DNA of 63,190 nucleotides from Bacteroidota bacterium (GTDB lineage Bacteria > Bacteroidota > Bacteroidia > B-17B0 > Aurantibacillaceae): NCBI GenBank assembly GCA_013816615.1, contig JACDED010000001.1:59256-122445 (forward strand), written 5' to 3'. The notes beneath the pieces are model-generated. The model was not told the origin of the DNA and searched no databases. It saw nothing but the letters and a program-made list of their open reading frames with translations. Each line of letters opens with the position of its first letter. Position 1 is the stretch's first letter. Both the position numbers and the translations under genes were made by a program. Below are positions 4,609-20,816 of the stretch, one piece after another.

Positions 4609-6120
4609 CTAATTTACCTGCAAAACATTACTTCCGCTACTTTCCACACCGTTATTATTTACTGCTTTTAATTGATATAAATTTAATTCGTTTGCTGTAT
4701 ACGATTCCGTTTCAACAGTGTCTTTGTTTTTTTCGATCGTTGCAATATTTAAAAATTTCTTTCCATCCCATTTATAAAGCTTGTATGCTTTTATATCCAT
4801 ATTATCCTGTATTAACCATTTAATATGTACATGATTATTAATTACCGCTGCTTTTAAATATTTTGGTCCAAATGATTGTTGAAATGCATTACTGTATGTG
4901 TAAGATAAACTTGGTACACTTTCCATTTCAGGGTTAACTGCTTTTACATAATATTCATCGCCGTTATTAGGCTTTGGTATCTGAACGTAATTTTGATCCG
5001 CTAAAACTATCCCGTTTTTCAAGGGCAAAAATTTATCACTATTGCTTGCTTTTATATAAACACTATAGGCAGCTATCTCATGATTTCTCAAACTATCAAT
5101 TTGCCATGCTAAATTATAAATACTATCAGGTGTTTGTATTAATTGTAAGTTTTGTGGTGGCGAAAGGCTTTTTATTTTCTTTGAATACGAAACAGTTAGC
5201 GTATCAGATGGTTTGCTTTTATCAAACGAATTACTTTCAGAAAGTACATAATATTGATAAGTTGTTTGATCTGTTAATGTGCTTGATGTATCCTGCCATT
5301 GATAACCCTTTAGTTCAGTAGCGGCAATTTTTGTTGACGCTAAAGAAAAACTATCTTGTTGTATTGTGCGTTTCATTATATAAAATCCTTTTGTATTTGC
5401 ATCCATATTTTGCCATGACAGTGTGATTTTATCTTTTACCAGCGAATATTTTAACTCTGCTATCTGTAAAGGAATAATAGGATAGTTTGCAACCAGGTTA
5501 CTTACCACTGAATAATAAATTTTATTATTACCTACATTCACCATTTGTAATCTGTAAAAATAAGGTTCGTTGGCATCACTCACTTCATCCAAAAAATTTG
5601 TTTGATCCGAATTAAGTGTTGCAATCGTTATAAAATTTTCTGTTTGTGTTCTGCTACGCTGCAATTGAATTGTTCTCAATGTAAAATTATTCTCTATTTG
5701 CCAGTTAATAGTTATTTTATTGCTACCTTTTATATTTTCAACATTAACAGTAGCAGCAACAGGTACCAAATCCGGCGCAAAAGCGTAAGCCCAAACTTCA
5801 TCATTCTGCAAAACTGTAGTATTGTAACTTGTCTCGATACGGTATTGATAAATACCCGGATTTCTTCTTGTGGTAGTGTCAAGGTATTTCCATATACTAC
5901 CAACCGCTAATTTTCGTTTCACCATAACTTTTTCTCCTGTTTTAGAAGTTTTATGGAGTACCAGATTAACACTATCCAGATTTTTAAATACTGGTATTTT
6001 GTATTCTATCATTATATCACCGCCGTCGTAATTTGCACTAAGGTTTAATGATTCTGGTTTTTTCTGAGCAAAGCAGTTTGTGATCAAAATGCAAAAGCAA
6101 ATATTTAATATGTTTTTCAT
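4609..6120 (-). CDS. Secreted protein with fibronectin type III-like repeats
   Basis: 503 residues. The N-terminus MKNILNICFCILITNCFAQ is a signal peptide ending at a typical AQ site. The rest is a series of about five beta-sandwich modules of roughly 90 residues, with Fn3-like motifs such as ITINWQIENNFTLRTIQLQRS, ITLSWQNMDANTKGFYIMKR and VHIKWLIQDNMDIKAYKLYKW, each followed by Y.Y.L or Y.LKAVN edge strands. No T9SS sorting domain, lipobox or catalytic motif is visible, so it is probably periplasmic or a surface partner of the neighbouring giant protein. It starts 7 bp after the stop of that gene and is the last gene of the operon. Confidence 0.8.
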   Translation of the reverse strand: MKNILNICFCILITNCFAQKKPESLNLSANYDGGDIMIEYKIPVFKNLDSVNLVLHKTSKTGEKVMVKRKLAVGSIWKYLDTTTRRNPGIYQYRIETSYNTTVLQNDEVWAYAFAPDLVPVAATVNVENIKGSNKITINWQIENNFTLRTIQLQRSRTQTENFITIATLNSDQTNFLDEVSDANEPYFYRLQMVNVGNNKIYYSVVSNLVANYPIIPLQIAELKYSLVKDKITLSWQNMDANTKGFYIMKRTIQQDSFSLASTKIAATELKGYQWQDTSSTLTDQTTYQYYVLSESNSFDKSKPSDTLTVSYSKKIKSLSPPQNLQLIQTPDSIYNLAWQIDSLRNHEIAAYSVYIKASNSDKFLPLKNGIVLADQNYVQIPKPNNGDEYYVKAVNPEMESVPSLSYTYSNAFQQSFGPKYLKAAVINNHVHIKWLIQDNMDIKAYKLYKWDGKKFLNIATIEKNKDTVETESYTANELNLYQLKAVNNNGVESSGSNVLQVN

Positions 6121-6127
6121 GCGCTGT

Positions 6128-9100
6128 TTAATTTAATGAGGGTGTAAATTTAAATCCACTAGCTTGTTTTTCCATTTTTAATTGAATGCCTAATCCTTTA
6201 GAACCTACACAATAAATAAGATCAGCACGAATACCGAATAATAAAAATCCAGTAAGATCATTTGCATACTTCAATTCTACTTCTCCTTCCGCGCTTCCAG
6301 CCAGGCCAATTTTACATCCAAAATCGTATAAGCATGATGCATTTGCATTTGCTTTTCCGCCAATAAGTATTGAAGTTCCATCAGCTACATTTAATGAGGT
6401 ACGCAGATCGATGCCCGCAGAAAAATCAAATGTTGGTATAAAAGATGACATACCGGGAATATCGTCTAAACTCGGGCCGGGTAATTGTGGCAGATCGGCT
6501 TTGCTTAATGATTTCATGACGTTTACATAAAACCCTTTAAGACCTTGTTCTAATCCTGGTAACTGATTATACAAAGTAACATTCAAAAGATCCTGTTTCA
6601 TATAATCGGGTAAAGTACCGCTATAAAACCCCAAAGCTATACCACTTTTAAAACCATCTAAAATTGGCAACGGTGTAATAGCCGCATTAGAAATAGCCCC
6701 GGATAATATAAACCCTTTACTATCAATTTGCATGTTTATTTTACCATCTATTATCAGCACTGGGCCTAATGCTATATTTGCAGACACCAACTTAACTGAG
6801 CCTTGTAATATTTTTTTATCAAAATCAAAAGTTATTTCAAGATCTCCAAAAGGTGTTTCTATTCCGTCTATTTTTATTTTTTTATCTGATAATGGATCTC
6901 CTGAAATAGCACCGTTGACAATAAAATCTATTTCATCTGCTTTATCCATTAAAATTTCGTTTGCGCCTGTTTTAAATCCTTTAGGTTTAGCAGTAAAACC
7001 TACAAGCGACCAGGTATTACTTGTTACAGCATTTCCTCCGCTTAATATCTGCATACTCCTATTGCCATCTTTACCCATTTTTATTTCTTCATTTTTAAAA
7101 ATATCCATTTTGGTTTGAGAAGGTGTTTTAGTAATCATCCCCTGCACAACTATTCCGTCGGAAGGTAAATTCTTATACATTATAACATCACCGGTTGTTG
7201 TAAACCTATTTTCTAAAAGTGTAAAGCTGGTGCCGTTAAACTTAACTTTTCCCGGCATCTCAATATCGGTTTGAAGTTTCTCAACAGTACATTTAATGTT
7301 GTTTCCAATTTTAGAATACTTAAACCTACCCGTTACATTACTATTTGCACCGGGTATTTCGAGGTCAGTATTCCCTATTAATGTAAAGTAATCTTTACCT
7401 ACTTCTATACCACTAATAGTTTGAGAAATTATATTAAAAAATTTATGTTTTGTAGGACTAATAAGCACACTTTTATGTTCGCCATCACTATAGTCACTTA
7501 ACATTTCTATATTAATTTTATCTCTGTCACCTATTCCCGGAATGTCATTTATATAGGCAACATTTTTATTTGTAGCATTTCCAATATTTATACGGTAATG
7601 CGGTAACTGATCAAATGAGCAGGCGGCATCATACATTAAATTAAATTTAGATCCTGAATACATATTAAGAGGCGTTATATTACTTAATGATAATTTTTCT
7701 TTGCCGCTTAAAGTGTTGGTTCCAAGATCAATTGTATTTGGCATTAACAACATTTCGTTTAATTGCACAGTAGGTAAACCACTTTGCAAGCTGCCTTGTA
7801 AAATTTTAAAGCCACCTTTATTGAGATCGTATTGCAAGCCTGTTCCGGTTATTTTCCATTTTTCTAAAGGAATAATAATTTCGCCGGAATACTCATTCCA
7901 GGTAATTGAATTTTGACTAACGTTAACCGTTCCTGCCGGTAAAGTGCTGATACCAACTAATGGGATCTTCAATTTTATTTCGGAACTGATCGAGAATTTT
8001 TCAGCATTAACGTACGATCCTTTTTTCATGCTTGCGTTAAAATTATGGATCTTAAAATCGCTAACACCATACAAAGCAGCTAAAACATATTTTTCTTTTG
8101 ATACCACAGCTTGCTCCGCACCCAATACTTCAAATGGTTCATTTTTCATATATTCTAAAATATTACCACCTGTATTCATTTTAGCTTTTTCTTCCTGGAA
8201 TAAAAATCTACCATTGTATTGATAACTAACATTAAAAGATGCCAGCTCTGACGTTACAAAACCTTTTAAAACACCGTAACCACTAGTGTTTTTAGTCATT
8301 TTTAATAATGGAAACTGATAAAACTCATCGCTACCCATTACTTCGCAAGAGAATTTATTAAAAGCCACAACTTTTAATGCATTGGTCTGAAGTAAAATAT
8401 TATCATTTTTAGTCTCAAAATAATATTCAGGCTTGTCGAATTTGCTCACCTTTTTTGTTAAAGTTGGTTTTTTTAATGTCCATACATCAATATTTTTGAA
8501 TGGCAATTTCGCATTAAACGAAGAAGTCTTGAATGTATTATTGCCAGGTATTTTTACAAATGCACCACTTATTTTTAAAGACATATCCGCATTCATATCT
8601 ACAGTATTTATTTCCACCGGTAAGCCCCAGATTTCTGACTTCATATTTAATGAGGTTAAATTAAAATCGGCACTACCCGAACCGTTAAGTCCCTGCACGC
8701 TTTGTTTCTGGCGCAAATAACCGTTATCTCCACTTTTCACAGCACACACATCAACCGGCAATTGTAAATAGGCGTCTATAAATTGCATGTATGTACCTTT
8801 GTTTATAGCTCCTGATAATTTATACTTGCCATTTTTATCAGTATATGTTTCGTTTTGTATTTCGCCATCATCGTTTACACCACTTATTGAGTAAACACGC
8901 GCGTTGGCAATTGGCTGCTTTGTTTTTTCGTCATATACCGTTCCGGTTATAGTTTGGCCTTTTATTAATTTGATTGGAATTATAGTTGGAGTTTTTGCTG
9001 TTGGAATGATCTTATAATCATCATATGTTACATAACCTTCTGCTACAACACGTACATAAAATTCATTATCAGCACTGGCAATAGCTATTGGATTAGTTAG

Positions 9101-12100
9101 ACCGGTTGATGAACTGCTGGGGTAACAAATGCTTAAATTTAATCCAACTGATGTACAGCTTTGCTTAACAGGTTTATTAAATTCATCTACAATTTTAAAT
9201 TGCACACGGTGCAATTTTTCTTTTACAATTATTTTTCCGGAAAAACCACTGGCACCATTGTTATTTATAACGGTTAACTTTCCACTTAAAATAGTTGCAG
9301 TAATACTTTCCGCAAAATAATTATCCACACAAGGCACAACTTCTACCAATACAGCACTACCACTTGCGCAATTATTTATACCAAATCCCCCGTTACCCGC
9401 TGTTTTTATAAATGGTCCACCTTTTACTCTCACATTACTAACTACGGGTTCACCTTTTTCGTTTACTACCCAACCAATAATATTTCCGCCACCTTCTAAA
9501 ACCTGCTCTACCTGTGCAGGAAAACGTTCACCATATACTAATTGTTGCCTGCTTGCAATTTTCAAAGTTGTATATCCTTCCTTCGCTATATATATTGATC
9601 GTAGAGGCCCGGTAACTTTATATGTATTGCCTTGTTTTTCAGAGGTAATTGCCAGATCTTTTAGATGTAAATAACCATTCACATCAGTTGTATAGTTAAT
9701 TATTTTTGGTAGAAATGAATTGGCTGTTGCATATTCGTAAATACTTACTTTCGCAAAAGGAATACCCTGTGTCATATTACCATTTTGTTTGGTAATTGCG
9801 CGTAAATAAATTTCCGGATTTTTTGGTTCTAATTCCAGTTCCACTTTTGTAGTAGAAATTTTTAATACAGAATTTCTTTTTCTTAATTTATAGGCTGCAT
9901 CAAAAAATACGTTTTCAAGTTTGCCATAGTTTTCAAAAAGTAACTTTGTTTCGGTCTTATAAGCAAAATTTCCTTCTAATGTTTTTTCAAGAGCCTGTAT
10001 ATATTTTTGGTCTCTTAAAAAATTATAATATAGATCAGCGTGTAATAAATTTTTAATAATGCATTTCCCTTCCGCATTAGTTTTAGCAACATCTAGTACA
10101 ATAGCCTTTTGCCCTAAGATCTCAGCATTTAAATTTTTATACATTTCTATATTTGCTTCTTTAGGATAAGAAATTTTCTTAGAATAATTGTCTTTGATCA
10201 CACTTATTTGCACGGGATAATTTGGCACAACCATTCCTTTATTCATTGCCTGGTCCTGTATTTTTTTATCTGCTACAACTGTAATTTCCAGGTTATATGA
10301 AGACGGAAAAACAACTTCGGTGGGAATTGTTATCGTTTGACCTTTTTTAGGAAATACTATCATATCCGAATTGCAAAATTTTTCTTCAGGCTCAGCAATT
10401 GCAATTCTCAAAGCTCCATACTCTGCGCTATTTGCATATTCTTTTAGTAAACCAAATTTTAAATTGCTGATAAAAGAAATCGAAAAATTTCCGTTCTGAT
10501 CGGTGGTGCCACTTCCTACAACAACTCCTGCTGATCCCGGGCCCGATCCGTATTGTTGGTGTGGTGCATTTTCAACATCATAACTTTTTAGGTCTTGATA
10601 TTGCGTAGGATCTTTTTTATTAGACTCAATACGATCATATACTAATTTAATATTTGTGTTTGCCACTGGCTTTGCATCGCTGGTTATTTTAAACATATTA
10701 TTGCAGATAAAGTCAGGCAGGGGTGCATCATTAGGTACAATTTGATTAATGGTTCCTGTCTTAACTGTTTTTACCGACGATGGAAAACTGAAACTGGTAT
10801 TTTCCGGTTGCTCTCCTTCTGTTTTATACCTGTATACTAATTTACCGGTTACAGTACCCGTTATTGAATTTTGAGCGTTAGGATCTTGCTTTTTTGTTTC
10901 TATGTATTTAAAAACTACGATCTGGCTTTTGCCAAAATCACTAAATACAATTGGCTGACCATAGGTATCTCTTCCTTTAGCTGTAACCTGTAGCGCATAG
11001 CTTTTTCCATCTTCCAAATTTACACTCCCATTTTTATCTCCCGGCTTTGTATTTATAATTGTATTAATCGATTCACCAATAAGTGTATAACTTGTTCCAT
11101 TAATCTCTTTATTTAAAATAACATTTAAATTATTGTTCATGTCTTTCTCGGCTGTTGTTTCATTAAATAATTTTACCATTTTAAGCGTGTATGTAATTTT
11201 ATTTCCTGCAGAATTTATATTCTTCCAATTCACATTTATATAAGTTGGTTTAACTGTAGCTGAAGAGTTTAAACTTGCCGTAAAGGTTGTATGAGCCACA
11301 GGACTTGTTATTTGCGTTCCATCTAAAAATATTGGTGTGTTGCCAACGTACGTAAACGTGCAAACTTCACTCTCACCATTATTTTTAAACATGGTCTTAT
11401 TTGCAGGATCAAATACTTTTATACGGTAGGCATATTTTTGCCCTTTAATTAATTTAGGATCTATAGGGCCATATAAATAAGATGTTGATTTTATTATTTT
11501 CTCAAAAAAAGCAGGCGTTACCATTGTGTTAATAGCATCATTCGCATTTTGAGTTGGCAATACGGGCACAATCTTTAAGAGGTATTGAAAGTTTGGTGAA
11601 AAGCCCGGATTATAGGTCCAGTTGAATAAAATATTTTGCACATCAGTAGCAAGCACATCACTGCCACATAGTGGAGAAAGTGGTAATGGCGGATCGGCAT
11701 GTTGAATAATAATCGGAGCTGAACAACCTGCAGGTGCTGAAGTTGACAAAGGCAGATCAGTAACAAAATCAAATACCTGTATGCAAATTTGATAAGTGCC
11801 TTCAGGCAAACCATCACCAATCGTTAGCTGTTTTATATTAATTCCGTTAACCGTTATACTACTTTCCTCAAAATACGTTTGAAGCGCTGTACTGCTCAAC
11901 ATTTTAGGAATTGAACCTTGTATTTGCAAACCCTGGGCAGGTTTATAATTTGGTTTTGTATAAACAGAAATACCATTATCACCTACAACGCTTGCTTTAA
12001 AATAAATTTCTTTTACATCAGAGGGTAAGCCGTTTGGCATTAATGTAATAAGCGTTTTGTTTTGATAATTAACATAATCGGCAATGTATGGCGAGTATGG

Positions 12101-12193
12101 AGGCAATACATTTAAACTAACATTTACATTAGTGATCTGCGCAAGACTAATTTTTGAAATTAATATTACTATTAAGATAATTAATTTTTTCAT
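6128..12193 (-). CDS. Giant secreted protein with TANFOR-like and carboxypeptidase-regulatory-like domains
   Basis: 2021 residues with a signal peptide (MKKLIILIVILISKISLAQ). Residues about 165-285 (opening with PPLPLSP..CG, then ILFNWTY, YLLKIVPV, Y.YGP.DP.L..GQKYAYRI) look like the TANFOR domain known from Tannerella forsythia and other Bacteroidetes. The middle carries several Ig/CarboxypepD_reg-like modules, for example GNIIGWVVNEKGEPVVSNV near 910 and GQTITGTVYDEKTKQPIANA near 1080. The last 700 residues are beta-rich repeats ending in a glycine-rich region and FKFTPSLN. I see no T9SS sorting domain, so the export route past the periplasm is unclear. Flanked by an outer-membrane barrel upstream (12-bp gap) and an Fn3 protein downstream, it probably forms a surface complex with them. 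Function unknown. Confidence 0.85.
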   Translation of the reverse strand: MKKLIILIVILISKISLAQITNVNVSLNVLPPYSPYIADYVNYQNKTLITLMPNGLPSDVKEIYFKASVVGDNGISVYTKPNYKPAQGLQIQGSIPKMLSSTALQTYFEESSITVNGINIKQLTIGDGLPEGTYQICIQVFDFVTDLPLSTSAPAGCSAPIIIQHADPPLPLSPLCGSDVLATDVQNILFNWTYNPGFSPNFQYLLKIVPVLPTQNANDAINTMVTPAFFEKIIKSTSYLYGPIDPKLIKGQKYAYRIKVFDPANKTMFKNNGESEVCTFTYVGNTPIFLDGTQITSPVAHTTFTASLNSSATVKPTYINVNWKNINSAGNKITYTLKMVKLFNETTAEKDMNNNLNVILNKEINGTSYTLIGESINTIINTKPGDKNGSVNLEDGKSYALQVTAKGRDTYGQPIVFSDFGKSQIVVFKYIETKKQDPNAQNSITGTVTGKLVYRYKTEGEQPENTSFSFPSSVKTVKTGTINQIVPNDAPLPDFICNNMFKITSDAKPVANTNIKLVYDRIESNKKDPTQYQDLKSYDVENAPHQQYGSGPGSAGVVVGSGTTDQNGNFSISFISNLKFGLLKEYANSAEYGALRIAIAEPEEKFCNSDMIVFPKKGQTITIPTEVVFPSSYNLEITVVADKKIQDQAMNKGMVVPNYPVQISVIKDNYSKKISYPKEANIEMYKNLNAEILGQKAIVLDVAKTNAEGKCIIKNLLHADLYYNFLRDQKYIQALEKTLEGNFAYKTETKLLFENYGKLENVFFDAAYKLRKRNSVLKISTTKVELELEPKNPEIYLRAITKQNGNMTQGIPFAKVSIYEYATANSFLPKIINYTTDVNGYLHLKDLAITSEKQGNTYKVTGPLRSIYIAKEGYTTLKIASRQQLVYGERFPAQVEQVLEGGGNIIGWVVNEKGEPVVSNVRVKGGPFIKTAGNGGFGINNCASGSAVLVEVVPCVDNYFAESITATILSGKLTVINNNGASGFSGKIIVKEKLHRVQFKIVDEFNKPVKQSCTSVGLNLSICYPSSSSTGLTNPIAIASADNEFYVRVVAEGYVTYDDYKIIPTAKTPTIIPIKLIKGQTITGTVYDEKTKQPIANARVYSISGVNDDGEIQNETYTDKNGKYKLSGAINKGTYMQFIDAYLQLPVDVCAVKSGDNGYLRQKQSVQGLNGSGSADFNLTSLNMKSEIWGLPVEINTVDMNADMSLKISGAFVKIPGNNTFKTSSFNAKLPFKNIDVWTLKKPTLTKKVSKFDKPEYYFETKNDNILLQTNALKVVAFNKFSCEVMGSDEFYQFPLLKMTKNTSGYGVLKGFVTSELASFNVSYQYNGRFLFQEEKAKMNTGGNILEYMKNEPFEVLGAEQAVVSKEKYVLAALYGVSDFKIHNFNASMKKGSYVNAEKFSISSEIKLKIPLVGISTLPAGTVNVSQNSITWNEYSGEIIIPLEKWKITGTGLQYDLNKGGFKILQGSLQSGLPTVQLNEMLLMPNTIDLGTNTLSGKEKLSLSNITPLNMYSGSKFNLMYDAACSFDQLPHYRINIGNATNKNVAYINDIPGIGDRDKINIEMLSDYSDGEHKSVLISPTKHKFFNIISQTISGIEVGKDYFTLIGNTDLEIPGANSNVTGRFKYSKIGNNIKCTVEKLQTDIEMPGKVKFNGTSFTLLENRFTTTGDVIMYKNLPSDGIVVQGMITKTPSQTKMDIFKNEEIKMGKDGNRSMQILSGGNAVTSNTWSLVGFTAKPKGFKTGANEILMDKADEIDFIVNGAISGDPLSDKKIKIDGIETPFGDLEITFDFDKKILQGSVKLVSANIALGPVLIIDGKINMQIDSKGFILSGAISNAAITPLPILDGFKSGIALGFYSGTLPDYMKQDLLNVTLYNQLPGLEQGLKGFYVNVMKSLSKADLPQLPGPSLDDIPGMSSFIPTFDFSAGIDLRTSLNVADGTSILIGGKANANASCLYDFGCKIGLAGSAEGEVELKYANDLTGFLLFGIRADLIYCVGSKGLGIQLKMEKQASGFKFTPSLN

Positions 12194-12205
12194 ATGCTTA
12201 TTTTT

Positions 12206-13888
12206 TTAAAAAGTAAATCCATAATTCATTCTCACAAAATATTCCTGGAAACTGCCACCTGCCAAAATATTTTTTGATTCGTTAAACAATCCGTTTAACA
12301 TCATAGAAACTGTATGTTGTTTGGCCACTTTCCAACCAATCGTATATTGTAAATTACCAACGTAACCGTTTTGCTCATTATTAAATGTGGAAGCATTAAT
12401 ACTTGCATTAAAATCATTTGTTATTTTATCTTCTTTCCAGCTTTTAGAAACTCCTCCCATCACACCAACTAAACCAATTGTTCCAACAAGACTCTTGCTT
12501 GTACTATAATTTAAACCGGTTGTAAATGATATTCTTTTTTGAACACCACTTCGCGTAAAAATTAAATTAGCAAACATCATTTCTACTTGTGTAAGATCTT
12601 TCGTAAACCTGTTCCTGTCATCTAATGCTTGCCTGCCAAAAATACCAATGCAACTAATTACCCTTTTTTCGTTAGCAATAACATAACGCGGCACGATATT
12701 TATTGAATTATTAATTTGGTTGATCGTAGCGGTATCACTTAAATTTCTGGTGCCTGCACGTTGGCTTGTGCCAAAATTTGCATAACTTAAATCAAGACCA
12801 AATTTTGCGTTTGGATTAAACGATACATTAGCATTATAAATTTTACGCTGCGTTGTAGCAATTTTTTTATCCAGTAAATTGTCGTTTTGCACTCCACCAC
12901 TTGCGCCGATTCGCACACGGTTTTTAATTAAATTAAAACGTATGTTTCCTAACATCTGTTCAAAATCAGTTTGAAAATAATAAGCACCCATACTTTTATA
13001 ATCTGGTGTTACTTTGCGATACTTTGCACCAATGCCAAAGCCCGGTTCGTTATAATTTAATTGTGCCTCGTAAGCATAATTTACCTGCGTTGAAATATTA
13101 GCACCAATAAAAGCAGTCGCGTTTTGATTGCCTAGATCTAAACTTTCAAATCTTATATCTCTTGTATATGCACTAACCGCGGCTTCTGCCTGCCATACAA
13201 TTCTTCTCTTAAAAAAAGAGAATTTATTGGTAGCTCCTAAAACCTGGTTCTTAGCCGGTAACACCTGGGTTGTAATTGGTGTAAAAGGTAAACTTGTACT
13301 ATCGTCTTTACCTTGTAAAAAATGCAGATCGAAAAAATTATTCTCGGTACCATAACCAATTTTAGCAACCGTCAACATTCGTTTATAGGCCGGATAATTA
13401 ATATCGTTTAGGTTATTTGTAATTGTCTTGGTTGTATCATCTGCAACTGCTTTTTGAGAGCGGCCATATAAAAAAGCGAACCTGAATTTTTTTGGCTTAA
13501 GTTCAATTCCCGCACCTAGAAGCGTATAACCTGCCATTCCAAACTGAGAATAAGAAATATTTCTATAACCCAGATGCAGCGTTACCCATTTGTAGGTTGG
13601 ACTTAAACCAAATTGATTAAAAGGTTGACGGAAATCGCGTTGATAATTACTAAAAGTAAACGAAAACGGCAAAACAACACCATAAATATTTAATACCGGA
13701 GAGCCGCTTACAACATATGTAAATTGAGGTTGACGGGCTTTTGCACCCTGCATACTGTAAAAACCGGTTTGTAAATTTAAACCACCATTAAACGTTAAAG
13801 GTTTTACATTTTTTAAATTATCAAGATCCTGTGCACTTAGTGTATGCAAAATAAAAATAAGGCCTGATAAGATAATTTTCGTTCTCAC
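12206..13888 (-). CDS. Outer-membrane beta-barrel protein of the TANFOR-type operon
   Basis: 560 residues beginning with a signal peptide (IILSGLIFILHTLSAQ). The body alternates hydrophobic and polar residues in strands with aromatic girdles (for example FSFTFSNYQRDF, WVTLHLGYRNISY, FRFAFLYGRSQ), and the chain ends FVRMNYGFTF, with the terminal phenylalanine of a BAM-recognised barrel. The start codon is GTG at 13888; a TAA lies just upstream in frame, so no ATG start is available. A -7-like box and the 37-bp motif precede it, making it the first gene of the operon that includes the 2021-residue protein. The family is not one I can name; a porin or anchor for its secreted partner is inferred from context. 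Confidence 0.8.
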   Translation of the reverse strand: MRTKIILSGLIFILHTLSAQDLDNLKNVKPLTFNGGLNLQTGFYSMQGAKARQPQFTYVVSGSPVLNIYGVVLPFSFTFSNYQRDFRQPFNQFGLSPTYKWVTLHLGYRNISYSQFGMAGYTLLGAGIELKPKKFRFAFLYGRSQKAVADDTTKTITNNLNDINYPAYKRMLTVAKIGYGTENNFFDLHFLQGKDDSTSLPFTPITTQVLPAKNQVLGATNKFSFFKRRIVWQAEAAVSAYTRDIRFESLDLGNQNATAFIGANISTQVNYAYEAQLNYNEPGFGIGAKYRKVTPDYKSMGAYYFQTDFEQMLGNIRFNLIKNRVRIGASGGVQNDNLLDKKIATTQRKIYNANVSFNPNAKFGLDLSYANFGTSQRAGTRNLSDTATINQINNSINIVPRYVIANEKRVISCIGIFGRQALDDRNRFTKDLTQVEMMFANLIFTRSGVQKRISFTTGLNYSTSKSLVGTIGLVGVMGGVSKSWKEDKITNDFNASINASTFNNEQNGYVGNLQYTIGWKVAKQHTVSMMLNGLFNESKNILAGGSFQEYFVRMNYGFTF

Positions 13889-13918
13889 TATTATAAATTT
13901 TCAATAATAATCCAACAT

Positions 13919-13989
13919 CAAAGGTGGTACAATTACCGCTTAATAAATTTTGTAATAGATAAACAACCATTTAAATAGATGAACGAAAA
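13919..13989 (-). promoter_or_regulatory. Promoter with 37-bp regulatory motif, before the barrel operon
   Basis: The motif at 13953-13989 contains two direct half-sites (TCTATT on the minus strand) 20 bp apart, within the longer unit GTT-Y-ATCTATT. A CACCTTTG -7-like box lies at 13919-13926, exactly 26 bp from the motif and 30 nt from the GTG start. 29 of 37 positions match the copy at 14517. There is no evident -33 box in the 26-bp gap, as expected for an activator-dependent promoter. Confidence 0.65.
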
Positions 13990-14049
13990 CAACCTCATAA
14001 ACAATTGAAAAATAGATATTTAATACTTTCTCCTCTTGTTTTTTAACGA

Positions 14050-14463
14050 CTAAAATTCTTGTTGTAACACATCAACAAAATTTTCAGGTAATTTTTTATT
14101 GAATGCGTTTGCCCTAGCTAGTTCGAAATTATAATCGTTCATATAAATTTCAATATTATTAATCGTGTTGTGCTCAAAAATAGTTCCTGAGTCTTCATTA
14201 AATACCCAAAAATCAAACGCTATTTCGTCTGAATCCGTATCTAAAATATGATATAAGCAAGCTTCAGCCCAGCCGCCGTCTTCTTCGCGAAATAAATTTA
14301 CGATATCAGACACATCCATGTTTTCAGCATCACTCTCAATTAAATAAAGGGGCACACAGGCAATTAATTGCTGTTTTTGAACAGCCGTTAAATTTTTAAA
14401 ATTATCATCTTCTATTTTGTAGTCTGCCAAAAAATCAAATTTTATATTCTGGATATTTTTCAT
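14050..14463 (-). CDS. Acidic protein of unknown function, paralogue of the 14577 gene
   Basis: 137 residues, acidic and cytoplasmic (no signal peptide or membrane segment). The C-terminal half aligns with the product of the gene at 14577-14969: HILDTDSDEIAFDFWVFNEDSGTIF against DIVDTSAPEKVIYECWVYLADTANVF, both followed by a T-N motif, an aromatic F-D/E segment and a terminal LQ-E-(A)-F. So the two genes come from a duplication. It has its own promoter with the 37-bp motif rather than being read from the operon upstream. No known family recognised; acidic proteins beside SUKH proteins are often immunity or sequestering proteins, but that is only inference. Confidence 0.7.
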   Translation of the reverse strand: MKNIQNIKFDFLADYKIEDDNFKNLTAVQKQQLIACVPLYLIESDAENMDVSDIVNLFREEDGGWAEACLYHILDTDSDEIAFDFWVFNEDSGTIFEHNTINNIEIYMNDYNFELARANAFNKKLPENFVDVLQQEF

Positions 14464-14482
14464 ATTTTTTTAATTGATCGAT

Positions 14483-14553
14483 CAAATGTAAATTAACACG
14501 CAAAAAAAAGCTATAAAAATAGAGCAGTAACTGTTTAAATAGATGAATGAAAA
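14483..14553 (-). promoter_or_regulatory. Promoter with 37-bp regulatory motif, before the 14463 gene
   Basis: The motif at 14517-14553 has TCTATT half-sites 20 bp apart. An exact -7 box TACATTTG lies at 14483-14490, again 26 bp from the motif, and 19 nt before the ATG at 14463. This is the clearest of the three copies. Confidence 0.7.
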
Positions 14554-14576
14554 TTTTGCTAATGCTATTAGAAAAT

Positions 14577-14969
14577 TTATTCTTTATCATCGAATGCTTC
14601 CTGCAAAGCCGCACAAAGCTCTTCATTACTACCATCACTCGTATGATCGTCAAACGACCATTGACACATAGCCGCAAGTGTATCGTTAGTTGTACCTGCA
14701 AAAAACACATTGGCAGTATCTGCCAGGTACACCCAACACTCATAAATTACCTTCTCAGGAGCACTAGTATCAACGATGTCCCAAAGTTCTACTGCACCAT
14801 CGTTTATATCACCATCCCCACTTTGTTCTAAAAAATGCTCTGCAGTTGTATATTCTTCACCAAAACCAAGAGTTGCAGATATTGCCATTTGATCAAGGTG
14901 TGTTTTTGAGAGTTTTTTATAATTTCCTGCATTAACCTCTCTGTGGTTTTTAAATTGTAATTTTTTCAT
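14577..14969 (-). CDS. Acidic protein of unknown function, paralogue of the 14050 gene
   Basis: 130 residues, acidic, cytoplasmic. Beginning MKKLQFKNHREVNAGNYKKL and ending LCAALQEAFDDKE, it contains the conserved core VELWDIVDTSAPEKVIYECW shared with the downstream gene. It lies 14 bp after the AlkB-like gene and ends the SUKH operon. The two paralogues have drifted to low identity, so the duplication is old. Function unknown. Confidence 0.7.
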   Translation of the reverse strand: MKKLQFKNHREVNAGNYKKLSKTHLDQMAISATLGFGEEYTTAEHFLEQSGDGDINDGAVELWDIVDTSAPEKVIYECWVYLADTANVFFAGTTNDTLAAMCQWSFDDHTSDGSNEELCAALQEAFDDKE

Positions 14970-14983
14970 AATTTATATTTTAT

Positions 14984-15691
14984 TTAATTGTGTGTTAAAA
15001 ATTTTCTAAATGTTAAACTAATGCGGGGTGCTGTTATACTTACATCCTGCGGAATTCTATGCCGGAAAAGTTTTTGCATATCTCCACCCATGGTAATAAT
15101 ACAACCTTGATTCATTTTGATTTTTAGCTTATTGTAAACAGCATCATTTTCTTCGTTTTTTAGTCTTTTACTTGTAAATAATATGTCGCGTGTAGTGTTT
15201 TCATCTCTATACAACGATAAAAGTGCAATGCCCGTATGTGGTTTTATACCAATTTCGCAATCGCTGTGTGCCGCAATATAATCCTTGCCACTTGCATACC
15301 AATTTACGATCACCTGATTATATTTATCTTCTTCTTTGGAATTTATATAATCTAAAAAAAATTGAAACGAAGTTGGCAGAGATAAATCGCTATAACCTTC
15401 TTTTCCGGAATACATATAACTCTTTTTGCCGTGCAAGTCTAAATCAAAAACAGGTGTATTCAAATAACTGCGATGCCATCTAAATGATGCATTATCTTTG
15501 CCATACATTACTACTCTGCCTCGTTCAGTTGGATGCAGTTGAAATAAATCCTGGTAATTTTCTTCTGCATAATTTATGAGCTCCTCAGATAGCCAGTCAA
15601 TCTCAATCCATACTGATTTGCTTTTTGTTAAATATATTTTTTTTAAATCTGAGTCCCTTGATGGATTTAAAAAAATTAAATCTTCTTCCAT
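14984..15691 (-). CDS. AlkB-like 2-oxoglutarate/Fe(II)-dependent oxygenase
   Basis: 235 residues. The AlkB fold is supported by NQVIVNWYASGKDYIAAHSD, where H-x-D supplies two iron ligands (about residue 141), a distal histidine in KLFRHRIPQ, and the 2-oxoglutarate-binding arginines in RISLTFRKF near the C-terminus. An upstream substrate-lid segment includes GRVVMYGKDNASFRWH and a tyrosine-rich loop. Family members reverse alkylation of DNA or RNA bases; here the position inside a cluster with SUKH and acidic proteins, rather than with ada or alkA, leaves the substrate open. Spacing of 14-16 bp to both neighbours indicates one operon. Confidence 0.85.
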   Translation of the reverse strand: MEEDLIFLNPSRDSDLKKIYLTKSKSVWIEIDWLSEELINYAEENYQDLFQLHPTERGRVVMYGKDNASFRWHRSYLNTPVFDLDLHGKKSYMYSGKEGYSDLSLPTSFQFFLDYINSKEEDKYNQVIVNWYASGKDYIAAHSDCEIGIKPHTGIALLSLYRDENTTRDILFTSKRLKNEENDAVYNKLKIKMNQGCIITMGGDMQKLFRHRIPQDVSITAPRISLTFRKFLTHN

Positions 15692-15707
15692 AATTTAATA
15701 ACCCTTT

Positions 15708-16184
15708 TTATATTTTTATTGGCATATTATAATTTATCAAACAGCTGCTGCTCAAATTATGAAAATCATAATACACATCTGCTTTTCCCCAATCGTATTT
15801 TTTATAATCGTTATGCATTTGATGTGCAAACCATAACTTTATAAAATCTCCTTTTTTAATTTCATCCTTCTCATTAAAATTATCCCAGCCAGAACTGTTG
15901 CTATTGGGCAATTTTTGATCCAAATTGTAAGGTAATTCCTGAACTAAAACACTTAGTTTACTGATGCGGTTATTTACGAAATAAAACGTAAGGATAAAAT
16001 ATAGATCCGCAATCTTTAAATCCCGTACAGTATAATTGCTGTGACCATTTTCAAAATCACGAACTTGTAATGCACTTTCTCCAAAATAAGCAACAAGGTC
16101 TTCTATTGTAGTTTTAGCCGAAACAATAAAATCCTTACTTATACTAAATTCCCCGGTTTTTGGATCTAGAAGCTGCACCATCAT
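15708..16184 (-). CDS. Small protein of unknown function in SUKH operon
   Basis: 158 residues, no signal peptide. It starts MMVQLLDPKTGEFSISKDFI and contains an aromatic segment (LKIADLYFILTFYFVNNRISKLS) and a C-terminal part rich in Asp, Tyr and Trp (KYDWGKADVYYDFHN). The ATG overlaps the stop of the SUKH gene by 4 bp, which implies translational coupling, so the product probably works with that protein. I do not recognise a family. The size and fold pattern would suit an immunity-type protein, but nothing in the sequence proves this. Confidence 0.7.
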   Translation of the reverse strand: MMVQLLDPKTGEFSISKDFIVSAKTTIEDLVAYFGESALQVRDFENGHSNYTVRDLKIADLYFILTFYFVNNRISKLSVLVQELPYNLDQKLPNSNSSGWDNFNEKDEIKKGDFIKLWFAHQMHNDYKKYDWGKADVYYDFHNLSSSCLINYNMPIKI

Positions 16185-18073
16185 TTTATGTCATAAGATA
16201 ACAATGGCGTTTCTGAAACGCCTATAACCCCACTGGTTAGTGTTAGAACAGCGCCCACGCCTTTTGCGTAATAGGTTTGAACAAATGCGTTAATAGACAC
16301 TAAGTTTCCATTGATCAACATATTACTGTCTGATTCTACCATTGCCACATCTTTATACTCCTTGCCTGCAATAACTTTGCTTGGCGCTATTTCTTTTACA
16401 GTAAATTTATAAACACAGTCAATACCGTTGGCTTTAAAAATCACGTCCCATTGATCTCCTAAAACCAAATTGTCTTTTAATACAACTTGCATATTTCCCT
16501 TTTCATAACTATCGCTAAAATATTCACCATTTACTTTTTTCATATTTCCTTTTACAGGATTTAATGAGTTGGATACGATAAACACTCCATTGTCGCAGCT
16601 TTCTATAGTATTTATCATTTGTTGGCCTGCAAAATCGTAAGTCCACGTATTGCCAATTGCTAAAGGATGATAGGCGTTTTCGTTACTAAATCCTTCGCTT
16701 GGCGCTTCCTGTTCTGTACTTTCAGATTCATCGTTATTTTCCGAGAACCAGGTGGATTGTTTGTATTCTAACCATTCTAAAAAATTAACAGTAGATGCCT
16801 GCAGGTTGTTCCATTTTAATTCCGGGTATAGTTCAAAATAGTTATCGTCTTCATCATCACCATAGCTTCCTGATTGAACTAAATTTCCATTTTCATCAGT
16901 TAATTCGTAAGTAAGTTTATTAGCATTCATTTTTTGAAGGTACCAAACTTCGCCGGCGCCATTTCCGTTAACGGGCATAATGTAATAACCACCACAACCA
17001 TACTCTGCTAAAAATAAATAACCACCGGCGTTTTTATTTATTTTAATAGGTTGCGACGCAGCAGAAGGATTACTTGCTTTTTGAAGCAAGTAATTATTTA
17101 CCTGTTCATCTGTAACAGGAAAAGGTTTTGCAAAATGATCAGGGTTTTTCTCAAGATAATTAATAAAGGTACCATCATCCCTGCTTCCGCTATTTAAAGA
17201 CATCACTGCGTCTTCAAAACTATTCATACCGTAAAAAGGGCCCACGCCGCCATTACTTACTATTTTTAAATATTGACGGTATTCTTCTGGCAATTTAAAT
17301 TGATATTTATTTTCCAGGTATGCAATTTCATTATCGGTAAGTGTTTTATTTAATTTGTAATGGTGCATAAAAGCGCCAAAAACAGTTTTATCTTTATCCC
17401 AGGCTTCAAAATTATACCACATTATTTTTACCGCAGTAAGTTTTTTATCAAGTTCGGCATTTGTATTAAACCAATTTTTTTGCATATCTTCTAGCCAATC
17501 AATAAAAGAAAACGTTTTTATCTGATTTTCTACAAAACACATTTCAGGTAATAAATTAAAATACATTTCTGTAGCACCACCTCTTTGTTCTCGCTCTGCT
17601 TTTGTAAGCATAAATACTTCATTTTTACAAGCACCGTTTAAAGCTAATATGTAATAACTATCTTCTGATATTTTGCTTAAAAACAAATAGCCGCCTGCAT
17701 TGGCGTCCATAGGTATTGGAGCTATATCTTTCGTGGCATTTTTTATTTTATTTGTCAGGTATTCAACAATTTTTTCTTCTGTAACAACAAAATCTAATTT
17801 GCAATGATTTAAATTTTGTGCTTTACCAAACGGCTGCAGACTCTCATTTAAAGAATACATCTGACCACTTATACAAGGGCCGCCGTTAGATACATTTAAA
17901 AGATAATTTTTATACTCTTCATGCAATTCAATGCCATGCTGTTGTTCAAATGCTTCTATGCTTTTAGCATCGATTACATTCTGTAAATTATTCTTCTCAG
18001 AAAATTTTTGGTCTTTGTTTTTAATGTTTAACCAGTTTGTTTTAATGGTTTCAATACGTTCGTTCAGTGTCAT
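16181..18073 (-). CDS. Double SMI1/KNR4 (SUKH) domain protein with C-terminal beta domain
   Basis: 630 residues, cytoplasmic. Two SUKH domains come in tandem: residues about 35-205 (HGIELHEEYKNYLLNVSNGG) and about 235-460 (KYQFKLPEEYRQYLKIVSNGG). Both halves repeat NAGGYLFL, YYI...NG, and a closing FL/FIDWLE..Q..WF, so the second arose by internal duplication. A third region, about 475-630, is beta-rich with LAIGNTWTYDF and QTYYAKGVGAVLTLTSG, resembling domains found in Bacteroidetes secreted proteins, but there is no signal peptide. SUKH proteins commonly neutralise polymorphic toxins or act as adaptors. It is the first gene of a tight four-gene operon and carries the 37-bp promoter motif upstream. 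Confidence 0.85.
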   Translation of the reverse strand: MTLNERIETIKTNWLNIKNKDQKFSEKNNLQNVIDAKSIEAFEQQHGIELHEEYKNYLLNVSNGGPCISGQMYSLNESLQPFGKAQNLNHCKLDFVVTEEKIVEYLTNKIKNATKDIAPIPMDANAGGYLFLSKISEDSYYILALNGACKNEVFMLTKAEREQRGGATEMYFNLLPEMCFVENQIKTFSFIDWLEDMQKNWFNTNAELDKKLTAVKIMWYNFEAWDKDKTVFGAFMHHYKLNKTLTDNEIAYLENKYQFKLPEEYRQYLKIVSNGGVGPFYGMNSFEDAVMSLNSGSRDDGTFINYLEKNPDHFAKPFPVTDEQVNNYLLQKASNPSAASQPIKINKNAGGYLFLAEYGCGGYYIMPVNGNGAGEVWYLQKMNANKLTYELTDENGNLVQSGSYGDDEDDNYFELYPELKWNNLQASTVNFLEWLEYKQSTWFSENNDESESTEQEAPSEGFSNENAYHPLAIGNTWTYDFAGQQMINTIESCDNGVFIVSNSLNPVKGNMKKVNGEYFSDSYEKGNMQVVLKDNLVLGDQWDVIFKANGIDCVYKFTVKEIAPSKVIAGKEYKDVAMVESDSNMLINGNLVSINAFVQTYYAKGVGAVLTLTSGVIGVSETPLLSYDIK

Positions 18074-18134
18074 AAAGTGAGTTCTTTAAAAGTTAATTAA
18101 ATGTGAGATCTCTCCCAACTATAATTTGCAAGTT

Positions 18135-18205
18135 CAAATATGAAATTTACCCTGATAAAAACACATTCAAATAGAGCAACAACTGTTTTAATAGACAAAC
18201 TACCT
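18135..18205 (-). promoter_or_regulatory. Promoter with 37-bp regulatory motif, before the SUKH operon
   Basis: The motif at 18169-18205 matches the 14517 copy at 27 of 37 positions and keeps the two TCTATT half-sites 20 bp apart. The -7-like box CATATTTG is at 18135-18142, once more 26 bp away. The leader to the SUKH ATG is about 60 nt. The motif lies only 11 bp from the mntR operator on the other side of this divergent region. Confidence 0.65.
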
Positions 18206-18216
18206 TTATTAACAGG

Positions 18217-18236
18217 TTTTTAGGTCAGCCTAAAAA
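18217..18236 (+). promoter_or_regulatory. DtxR/MntR-type operator
   Basis: A perfect 8-bp inverted repeat, TTTTTAGG-TCAG-CCTAAAAA. The core TTAGGTCAGCCTAA differs at one base from the classical DtxR/IdeR half-site TTAGGTTAGCCTAA. It overlaps the probable -33 region of the mntR promoter (-7 box TACTTTTG at 18264-18271), so occupancy should block transcription. It is very likely the autoregulatory site for the mntR-mntH pair. Confidence 0.8.
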
Positions 18237-18263
18237 TTTGTTTAGTGTCATAAAATTTATTAT

Positions 18264-18271
18264 TACTTTTG
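18264..18271 (+). promoter_or_regulatory. -7 promoter box for mntR-mntH
   Basis: TACTTTTG fits TAnnTTTG. It sits 17 nt before the ATG at 18289, and a TTTG at 18237-18240 in the operator edge can serve as the -33 element. Confidence 0.6.
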
Positions 18272-18288
18272 TACCCAAAACTATTATA

Positions 18289-18957
18289 ATGCTTATTTCA
18301 CTTACAGAAGAAAATTATCTTAAAGCCATTTATAGTTTAAGTCATTTAGAGGCAGATGCTGATGTAAGCACCAATCAAATTTCTGATCATCTCAGCATAA
18401 AAGCGGCAACGGTTACAGATATGTTGAAACGTTTGGCAGAAAAAAAACTGATCCATTATATTCCTTACCAGGGCGTGAAGCTAAGCGAAAAAGGCAAAAG
18501 CACTGCCATTAAAGTAGTACGAAAACATAGATTATGGGAAGTTTTTTTGGTGGATAAATTACAATTCAAATGGGACGAGGTTCATGAAATAGCTGAACAA
18601 TTGGAACATATCAATAGTGATGAACTTATTCAGCGTTTGGATAAATTTCTTGGTAAGCCTAAATTCGATCCGCATGGTGACCCAATTCCGGATGCTAACG
18701 GTCAGCTTAATATTGTAAAAGCAATTCCTTTAAACCAACATAAAACAAAAGGTAGCTTTACATTTGTTGGTGTAGCCGAGCATTCAAAAACATTTCTTCA
18801 ACATCTAACATCTATAGGCTTAAAAATAGGTGATGCTGTGAAAATTGAAGAGATAAATGAGTTTGATAATTCATTTAAAGTAAAAATAAATAAAACAAAT
18901 AGTCAGTTCTTTAGTAATAAAGTAGCGTCTAATATTTTAGTGGAGGAGAAAAAATGA
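18289..18957 (+). CDS. mntR: DtxR/MntR-family metal-dependent transcriptional regulator
   Basis: 222 residues from the ATG at 18289; the upstream TTG at 18238 is rejected because it lies before the -7 box. The N-terminal winged helix-turn-helix (SLTEENYLKAIYSL through ATVTDMLKRLAEKKLIHY) is followed by the metal-binding and dimerisation domain (KHRLWEVFLVD..., then H-E-I-A-E-Q-L-E-H) with the metal-ligand pattern E/H, and a C-terminal SH3-like FeoA domain (LTSIGLKIGDAVKIEEI). Such regulators repress metal uptake when Mn2+ or Fe2+ is plentiful. The stop overlaps mntH by 4 bp and a matching operator lies upstream, so autoregulation is likely. Confidence 0.93.
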   Translation: MLISLTEENYLKAIYSLSHLEADADVSTNQISDHLSIKAATVTDMLKRLAEKKLIHYIPYQGVKLSEKGKSTAIKVVRKHRLWEVFLVDKLQFKWDEVHEIAEQLEHINSDELIQRLDKFLGKPKFDPHGDPIPDANGQLNIVKAIPLNQHKTKGSFTFVGVAEHSKTFLQHLTSIGLKIGDAVKIEEINEFDNSFKVKINKTNSQFFSNKVASNILVEEKK

Positions 18958-20816
18958 GCAAGTCGTTAGAAGAGGTAAACTCTAGTGTAAATACAAATAC
19001 CGGTGGTACAGTAAAAAGATTACTGGCATTTATTGGCCCTGCATATATGATCAGTGTTGGTTATATGGATCCGGGCAACTGGGCAACCGATATTGCCGGT
19101 GGAAGTAAATTCGGCTACAACTTATTATGGGTTTTGGTAATGAGCAACATCATCGCCCTCTTATTACAAAGCCATTGCGTAAGACTGGGAATAGTTAGTG
19201 GTAAAGATCTTGCACAGGCATCTCGCGAAACTTATCCGCGTTTTATTAATTTATTTTTATATGGCCTTGCCGAAATTGCTATTGCTGCCTGCGATCTTGC
19301 CGAAGTTATTGGTATGGCTATTGGTATCCATTTATTATTTCCTAATATCAGCATTTTAACGGGCGTTTGCATTACTGTATTAGACAGCTTTATTTTATTA
19401 TTTCTTTTAAATCGTGGCATTCGTAAACTGGAAGCATTTATTATTTGTCTTGTTTTATTAATAGGTGTTTCTTTTTTTATTCAACTTTTCATTGCGAAAC
19501 CCGTACTAAGTGAAATTGCAGGTGGCTTAGTGCCGTTCATTCAAAATGATGAAGCGCTTTATATTGCTATCGGAATTATTGGTGCTACCGTTATGCCACA
19601 TAATTTATATTTACACAGCTCACTCGTACAAACCCGGAAATTTAACCGTACACCAACTGATATAAAAAAAGCCATTCGTTTTAATACCATCGATAGTGCC
19701 ATCGCATTAAATCTTGCTTTATTTGTAAACGCTGCCATTTTAATTTTAGCTGCTACTACTTTTTTTAAACAGGGAAGACATGATGTGGCAGAGATACAAG
19801 ACGCACATCAATTATTAGCGCCCATGTTAGGCAGTACTCTGGCCCCTATCTTATTTGCCGTTGCTTTAATTGCCGCCGGCCAAAGCTCTACTATTACGGG
19901 CACATTAGCCGGACAAGTTGTAATGGAAGGTTATTTGAACTTACGTTTACAACCATGGATAAGAAGATTATTAACGCGTTTAATTGCAATCGTTCCTGCA
20001 TTTTTAACCATTTATTTTATGGGTGATGGTGCCACAGGAAAGCTATTGATCTTTAGCCAGGTTGTTTTAAGTTTACAATTAGGTTTTGCTGTAATTCCTC
20101 TTATTCACTTTGTGAGTGATAAAAAGAAAATGGGTGAATTTACGATCCCTAAATGGCAAAAAATATTATCCTGGGTATCAGCATTAGTTATTATTGGTTT
20201 AAATGTAAAACTGGTTTTTAACGAGATCACTGATCTTTTATTTACAAGCGAGCATGCTGTTTTAATAAGTTTTACTATTGTACCTGTTTGCATCTTTTCC
20301 TTCTTAATGTTGATCTATATCACCGTTGTGCCATTCATTACAAAAGAAAAAATAAACAAACGCAAAGGATTTCATGATGAGTTACAGCCTTTAGAATTAG
20401 ATTTTAAAACCAATGTTAGGCGAATTGCTGTAACTGTTGATTTCAGTCCCAGCGATAACAAAGCCATTAATAAAGCTTTGCAAATCGGTGATAAAGATTC
20501 TACACTTATCTTAATTCATATTTTAGAAAGTACCAACGCTATGGTTTACGGTGAAGAATCGTTTGACTTTGAGCGTGAAGAAGATTATCAGAAATTAAAA
20601 AAATACCAAACTGAATTACAGGGCAAAAATATTACAACAGAAATTCAATTAGGTTTTGGGATCCCAAAATTATCTATTCCAAAAATTATACAGGAAAAAA
20701 ATTGTGATATTTTAATTATGGGAACGCATGGACACCGAACTATAAAAGACATTTTATTGGGAAGTACGATTGAAAGTGTAAGGCACGAAATTAAAATTCC
20801 GTTGATGTTGGTGTAA
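18954..20816 (+). CDS. mntH: Nramp-type Mn2+/Fe2+ transporter fused to a UspA domain
   Basis: 620 residues. The first 460 or so are an Nramp proton-coupled importer with about eleven membrane helices, the metal-site motif YMDPGNWATDIAGGS on helix 1 and VMPHNLYLHSSLVQTR on helix 6. A cytoplasmic universal-stress-protein domain follows (about 475-620): RRIAVTVDFSPSDNKAINKA at its start and the nucleotide-binding signature MGTHGHRTIKDILLGSTIESV at the end. The fusion is seen in Bacteroidetes and suggests nucleotide-linked control of uptake. It overlaps mntR by 4 bp, so it is controlled by the operator upstream of that gene. Confidence 0.95.
   Translation: MSKSLEEVNSSVNTNTGGTVKRLLAFIGPAYMISVGYMDPGNWATDIAGGSKFGYNLLWVLVMSNIIALLLQSHCVRLGIVSGKDLAQASRETYPRFINLFLYGLAEIAIAACDLAEVIGMAIGIHLLFPNISILTGVCITVLDSFILLFLLNRGIRKLEAFIICLVLLIGVSFFIQLFIAKPVLSEIAGGLVPFIQNDEALYIAIGIIGATVMPHNLYLHSSLVQTRKFNRTPTDIKKAIRFNTIDSAIALNLALFVNAAILILAATTFFKQGRHDVAEIQDAHQLLAPMLGSTLAPILFAVALIAAGQSSTITGTLAGQVVMEGYLNLRLQPWIRRLLTRLIAIVPAFLTIYFMGDGATGKLLIFSQVVLSLQLGFAVIPLIHFVSDKKKMGEFTIPKWQKILSWVSALVIIGLNVKLVFNEITDLLFTSEHAVLISFTIVPVCIFSFLMLIYITVVPFITKEKINKRKGFHDELQPLELDFKTNVRRIAVTVDFSPSDNKAINKALQIGDKDSTLILIHILESTNAMVYGEESFDFEREEDYQKLKKYQTELQGKNITTEIQLGFGIPKLSIPKIIQEKNCDILIMGTHGHRTIKDILLGSTIESVRHEIKIPLMLV

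Follow-up and report, generated by a model that had tools for sequence, protein, structure and literature searches.

A direct-repeat promoter element shared by envelope-type and SUKH-type operons in a Bacteroidota genome, and its probable link to a LytTR two-component system

The window analysed here, a stretch of 63,190 nucleotides from contig JACDED010000001.1 of a Bacteroidota bacterium (assembly GCA_013816615.1; the source genome, G000, comprises 4.68 Mb in 246 contigs), contains three transcription units that share a promoter element (Table 1): a TANFOR-type envelope operon, a gene for a small acidic protein, and an operon that includes a SUKH-type protein and an AlkB-like oxygenase. A preliminary description of this DNA had placed a 37-bp motif on the minus strand ahead of each of them, at 13953-13989, 14517-14553 and 18169-18205; coordinates and strand proved correct, as did, on recounting, the identity of the first and third copies to the middle one (29/37 and 27/37), and the first and third copies agree with each other at 25/37 positions. 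A repeat search of the window ranks the same three copies as its top family. In all three, TCTATT half-sites stand 20 bp apart, as described, and the spacing to the -7 box is indeed fixed: 27 nt lie between the last T of the second TCTATT and CACCTTTG, TACATTTG and CATATTTG, respectively, and the earlier count of 26 bp corresponds to these 27 nt because the 37-bp motif holds one extra base. Given the nucleotide composition of the three intergenic regions, the probability of a TTTG at one particular place is about 0.01.

A scan of the whole genome yields four strong sites. The pattern AATAGANNAN{8,14}TTNAATAGANNAA has four exact matches in G000, three in the window and one on contig C87 (C87:4027), and the reversed control pattern has none; the recurrence of the motif is not a matter of chance. 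The fourth copy, which was found without using the box, is followed by the -7 box GAACTTTG at the same distance of 27 nt. A sequence model of 45 positions, built from sites that included the four G000 copies, scores these copies at E-values from 1.6e-10 to 7.4e-7, and its next match in the genome has an E-value of 0.225. With the gap set to 13 instead of 14 nt, the pattern matched about as often as the reversed control in 40 genomes, a result that doubles as a control for the spacing; with three mismatches allowed, the matches listed were at control level apart from the exact ones. One could still think of chance repetition or of a recent local promoter duplication without function, as the three window copies lie near each other and copies 2 and 3 may derive from one operon promoter. 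However, this explanation has next to no probability: the fourth copy lies on another contig, the spacing to the -7 box is fixed, and the same design recurs, between flanks that have diverged, in genomes of other genera and families, so that the comparative data contradict it.

The regulator gene had been expected outside the window, and contig C87 provides a candidate whose gene adjoins a copy of the motif. On one side of the fourth copy, in the direction in which it points, is a lipoprotein gene; on the other is a divergently transcribed gene for a LytTR response regulator of 234 amino acids, which is followed by a gene for a TPR-histidine kinase of 666 amino acids (the pair occupies L005 4100-6801). 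The regulator matches the LytTR domain (PF04397, 54.1 bits; cut-off 22.6) and the receiver domain (PF00072, 60.8 bits; cut-off 30.2), and D10, D11, D56, T81 and K101, which we take to be the residues with the characteristic roles in the receiver domain, including the phospho-acceptor, are invariant in four orthologues. The kinase contains TPR and HATPase_c domains, plus a HisKA match below its cut-off.

Site and regulator occur together in related genomes. Among 40 genomes of the genus, regulator matches with an E-value of at most 1e-40 were found in four: G000, G012 (80% identity), G007 (57%) and G030 (33%). The last is probably a paralogue; its locus has no pair of TCTATT half-sites. Among 87 genomes of the order, where up to 32 candidates per genome were scored, an orthologue with an E-value of at most 1e-52 is present in four, namely G000, G012 (80%), G007 (57%) and G067 (60%), the last of which belongs to another genus. 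A 30-nt pattern searched with up to one mismatch was found in three of the 87 genomes, G000 (four matches), G012 (two) and G007 (one), all of them exact, and all three genomes hold a close orthologue of the regulator; the control pattern gave one match in all 87 genomes. The site of G067 has one of the 12 TCTATT bases changed, occupies the same intergenic place with the same 27-nt spacing, and is matched by the model with an E-value of 1.7e-4. In each of these four genomes, one site adjoins the regulator gene. The model matches all 15 regulator-bearing genomes at E-values of 2.9e-4 or better, and has no match below 0.03 in any of seven genomes without a close orthologue. Eight of the 15 regulator-bearing genomes supplied sites to the model, and the seven outside it (G067, G087, G088, G093, G094, G095 and G101) all match.

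An alternative explanation for this pattern is that a different DNA-binding protein, inherited together with the LytTR system, uses the sites. With the site placed between the regulator gene and the gene divergent from it, their adjacency alone could reflect shared regional ancestry. This is very unlikely, as near-exact copies occur solely in regulator-bearing genomes among the 87 of the order, and include copies far from the regulator; the seven genomes without a close orthologue lack model matches below an E-value of 0.03; the neighbouring genes are spread over 18 blast clusters, next to a site and a regulator that are retained; and LytTR regulators use direct repeats of such a period (PMC6193735).

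The association extends beyond the order. A scan with the regulator alignment, using one genome per species, returned at least 480 confirmed stretches, of which the best 80, mostly from Flavobacterium, were kept; 220 bp upstream of each of these 80 orthologues were scored with a position weight matrix built solely from the four G000 copies. At least 16 bits were reached by 61 of the 80 orthologues, compared with 0 of 1600 letter shuffles and 4 of 1529 pieces drawn at random from these loci; at 10 bits, the corresponding counts are 68 of 80, 56 of 1600 and 44 of 1529. Some of the random-piece matches need not be false because some loci hold a second regulator. All 68 sites with at least 10 bits point away from the regulator. 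TTTG starts 32 nt past the site in 53 and 31 nt past it in 6 of them, and in most orthologue sites the gap to the -7 box is 27-28 nt. The same holds for sites that lie away from the regulator: three in G000, one in G012 and one shown in each of three Flavobacterium genomes all have TTTG at 31-32 nt (7/7).

These alignments define the site as two 14-bp direct repeats with a 20-bp period, a half-site consensus of about GTYGTTNRTCTATT and a 6-nt spacer such as TAAAAT; across 45 distinct pairs, the commonest base is the same in both halves at 12 of the 14 positions. In distant orthologues a changed core, similar in both halves, recurs with the period preserved, as judged by eye. The preliminary description had called the -33 region not conserved, which is true of the window; it is not true of relatives with the box at 28 nt, where GTTTT follows the site at offsets 4-8. 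In 46 distinct promoters with at least 16 bits and a box at 28 nt, T is found at offsets 5-9 in 76-96% and the preceding G in 78%. This run would coincide with the place of a -33 element.

The number, spacing and orientation of the sites, their linkage to the regulator gene and their co-occurrence with it, all read from the DNA itself, point to the following interpretation, to which we assign a probability of roughly 0.85: the three window elements are operators of one two-component system, composed of the LytTR regulator and the TPR-histidine kinase, which probably activates envelope genes. We infer that the kinase would sense a signal through which the regulator becomes phosphorylated, and that the phosphorylated LytTR protein encoded on C87 would bind as a dimer, head to tail, to the two half-sites. 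Bound there, it would lie against RNA polymerase at the -33 region, which is weak, and activate the promoter whose xAnnTTTG -7 box follows 27 nt downstream; in G000, such sites would control the four transcription units that they precede.

The same regulator bound to the same operators might instead repress, with polymerase blocked at -33, and the site does abut the -33 region, where a bound protein could equally stand in the way. We consider this unlikely. The -7 box lies outside the site, the -33 region is weak in the window, and TTTG at 31 or 32 nt in 59 of 68 sites is what contact with polymerase would lead one to expect. In addition, LytTR systems of Streptococcus mutans use repeats just upstream of -35 for activation (PMC6193735). 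We also considered a site for an extracytoplasmic sigma factor; two features led us to reject it: the -7 box has the ordinary form xAnnTTTG, and upstream of this box the site forms a direct repeat.

Several observations weigh against activation by the LytTR system through these operators. In nine of the 68 sites there is no TTTG at 31-32 nt, and the A of xAnnTTTG is missing before TTTG in the G007 site and in one that lies away from the regulator (L194). With the matrix from the source genome, 12 of the 80 loci score below 10 bits; in 10 of these a similar repeat with a changed core and a 20-bp period (21 bp in L132) is seen by eye, and in two (L114 and L122) no repeat is. The counts over 80 loci are not independent, because many come from closely related Flavobacterium. 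Covariation between the half-sites is weak, with positions 10 and 12 alone rarely reached by shuffles (2 and 6 of 500, respectively). The consensus for LytTR regulators is a 9-bp motif, [TA][AC][CA]GTTN[AG][TG], and, by eye, the half-sites fit it in part: many contain a GTTNRT-like part, and the first three positions are often off.

In a group of loci from Ferruginibacter and relatives (L143, L147, L148, L150, L152 and L155), halves with another core (such as GCGATT or CCAATT) stand 20 bp apart, as judged by eye. The regulators of the same loci have one residue fewer in the last loop of the LytTR domain.

LytTR response regulators are common in Bacteroidota, and the TPR-histidine kinase FimS of Porphyromonas controls fimbriae. 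The FimS equivalog (NF053520) is the NCBIfam model closest to the C87 kinase, which is not classed as FimS because its 134.7 bits are far below the cut-off of 600; the regulator scores 110.6 bits with the BtsR equivalog (NF008677), below the cut-off of 246. AgrA is described as binding two direct repeats as a dimer (PMC4227749), YpdB as binding a 10-bp motif present as a direct repeat (PMC4847170), and LytTR regulatory systems (LRS) as using direct repeats with 11-13 bp between them, placed a few bp ahead of -35 (PMC6193735). The proposed operators have the layout of LytTR sites, with direct repeats of a 20-bp period (about 20-22 bp expected) close upstream of the promoter. Like AgrA, YpdB and BtsR/YehT, the system combines a receiver and a LytTR domain with a direct-repeat pair upstream of the promoter; it differs from them in the repeat sequence, the 20-bp period, the Bacteroidota -7/-33 promoter and the TPR-containing kinase. 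Direct repeats upstream of the promoter are also found in the LRS HdrRM and BrsRM; however, in these the partner of the LytTR protein is a membrane inhibitor, whereas the C87 regulator carries a receiver domain and the next gene encodes its histidine kinase partner, so that it is not a member of the LRS. The TAnnTTTG -7 box agrees with the sigma-A consensus of Flavobacterium psychrophilum (PMC9723704); LytTR is absent from the main text of that paper. In Flavobacterium johnsoniae, a LytTR response regulator was mutated in two coevolved isolates (PMC10197871). Among the open-access PMC papers listed, none appears to define a LytTR operator in Bacteroidota, and none on a bacterial regulator came up for the core letters of the site. 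The system is probably a LytTR two-component regulon, a kind already known, with an unusually complete comparative definition: regulator, half-site, period and distance to the -7 box can all be stated from sequence. Flavobacterium johnsoniae CI04, with a single strong site, would make the claim easy to test.

The two gene clusters of the window had been called unrelated. This is correct for their sequences; it does not hold for their regulation, since operons of both the SUKH type and the TANFOR type adjoin the regulator in relatives. SUKH-type operon genes lie directly downstream of the regulator-adjoining site in G007 and G067. The genes divergent from the regulator in G007 encode a lipoprotein, a SUKH protein, an AlkB-like protein (55%), a member of the 158-amino-acid family (26%) and an acidic protein (68% identical to that of the 14577 gene); the SUKH gene is interrupted by a gene for an IS1595-type transposase (PF12762) and small open reading frames (ORFs; L072 11916-13025). 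Those in G067 encode a lipoprotein, an acidic protein (46% to that of the 14050 gene), a protein with an S74-type chaperone domain (PF13884), a SUKH-type sequence (51%) split over two neighbouring ORFs, and a member of the 158-amino-acid family (31%). In G012, a piece matching the C-terminus of the SUKH protein (57% over 168 columns) follows the lipoprotein gene. In Flavobacterium amnicola, a TANFOR-type operon is divergent from the regulator, with 36% identity for its first gene and, for the N-terminus of the second, 41% over 287 columns. The TANFOR operon of G012, with its site, stands immediately beside an Nramp-family gene that is 94% identical to that at window 18954-20816; in the window, the two are separated by a gene for a DtxR-type repressor with a FeoA domain, by the SUKH operon and by the 14050 gene. 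The simplest reading of this arrangement is that the SUKH operon may have arrived, with its operator copies, beside another member of the same regulon. At 12 further homologues of the first TANFOR-operon gene, one of them in G000, the motif was not found, the best score anywhere in a locus being 10.2 bits; one of the 12 loci (L208) has almost no upstream sequence.

Table 1. Promoter elements and target genes in the window (positions counted from its first nucleotide).
Feature	Position	Strand	Basis or comparison
Operator copy 1, distal 14-bp half-site	13974..13987	-	sequence; limits from half-site comparison
Operator copy 1, promoter-proximal half-site, 20-bp period	13954..13967	-	sequence
-7 box CACCTTTG, TANFOR operon promoter, 27 nt past site	13919..13926	-	sequence
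Operator copy 2, distal half-site	14538..14551	-	sequence
Operator copy 2, promoter-proximal half-site	14518..14531	-	sequence
-7 box TACATTTG of the 14463 gene	14483..14490	-	sequence
Operator copy 3, distal half-site	18190..18203	-	sequence
Operator copy 3, promoter-proximal half-site	18170..18183	-	sequence
-7 box CATATTTG, SUKH operon promoter	18135..18142	-	sequence
Target 1, first gene: protein of 560 aa, by eye of outer-membrane type	12206..13888	-	86% identical in G012
Target 1: 2021-aa protein, TANFOR-like N-terminus	6128..12193	-	TIGR02542 34.1 bits, below cut-off 67
Target 1: 503-aa protein with fn3 domain	4609..6120	-	domain match
Target 2: acidic 137-aa protein	14050..14463	-	G067 relative (46%) in operon beside regulator
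Target 3: protein with two SUKH (SMI1/KNR4) stretches	16181..18073	-	domain match
Target 3: 158-aa protein	15708..16184	-	homologues beside regulator in G007 and G067
Target 3: AlkB-like 2OG-Fe(II) oxygenase	14984..15691	-	PF13532
Target 3: acidic 130-aa protein	14577..14969	-	sequence

Three of the target proteins, the two acidic ones and that of 158 amino acids (aa), have no match in Pfam or NCBIfam. The two acidic proteins do not match each other in a direct blastp comparison, and are linked solely through the G067 protein (46% and 24%) and an alignment at 24% identity. At an E-value of at most 1e-10, the 130-aa protein is found in two of the 87 genomes of the order, both with the regulator; its structure was predicted, from three sequences, with a local distance difference score (pLDDT) of 74 and a template-modelling score (pTM) of 0.70, and the model has no match in the PDB at an E-value of 0.001 or better. 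PADLOC reports CARF_2OG for the oxygenase, where the match covers residues 121-232 only, that is, its 2-oxoglutarate (2OG) part, and a weak match (E-value 0.0043) in the SUKH protein. As the acidic and 158-aa proteins are without family, the model of the 130-aa protein is without PDB match, and the PADLOC matches are partial or weak, we do not claim an anti-phage or immunity role for this operon. The SUKH promoter region (window 18135-18295) is divergent from the DtxR-type repressor gene and the Nramp gene, which carries a Usp domain.

Across genomes, the genes behind the site vary widely. Our survey of targets covered 71 site-bearing loci (L005, L070 and L075 in addition to 68 of the 80), and in 68 of the 71 a simple rule identifies a downstream ORF. 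The 68 ORFs form 18 blastp clusters (E-value of at most 1e-5, coverage of at least 40%), the largest with 30 members; the limits of the clusters vary with the blast threshold. A lipobox-like N-terminus, detected with a simple pattern, is present in 43 of the 68, and the targets as a group suggest that the system controls the cell surface. A quick tree of the 68 regulators requires the target cluster to change at least 23 times, compared with 17 if each cluster had arisen once. The set offers a clear example of a conserved switch with a repeatedly replaced target gene. A tentative reading, to which we give somewhat less than even odds, is that Bacteroidota possess a swappable control cassette made up of regulator, kinase and operator. 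Different genera and families would retain the same switch and repeatedly exchange the divergent surface-protein gene, and new operons would join the regulon through operator copies that they bring along, as in the window.

At a model E-value of at most 1e-3, nine of the 15 regulator-bearing genomes have one site, which faces the gene divergent from the regulator; two sites are found in G012, G091, G092 and G098, three in G088 and four in G000, whose putative regulon has four promoters where nine genomes have one. Of the extra sites examined, those of G091, G098 and G088 face lipoprotein-like genes, and that of G092 adjoins a second regulator. G088 (F. amnicola) has, beyond its three sites, a fourth with an E-value of 0.0103, and a second kinase of the same kind at the start of its locus (L085). 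One of the few weak model matches below 0.01 away from a regulator is a partial one of 20 nt in G007 (G007:C34:1446-1465, L197; E-value 0.0086). In Flavobacterium lotistagni (L107, about 10001-18548), two regulator-kinase pairs stand in tandem, each with a site and a similar secreted-protein-like gene, and L127 holds, within one 20-kb stretch, two homologues of the regulator and two members of the lipoprotein family.

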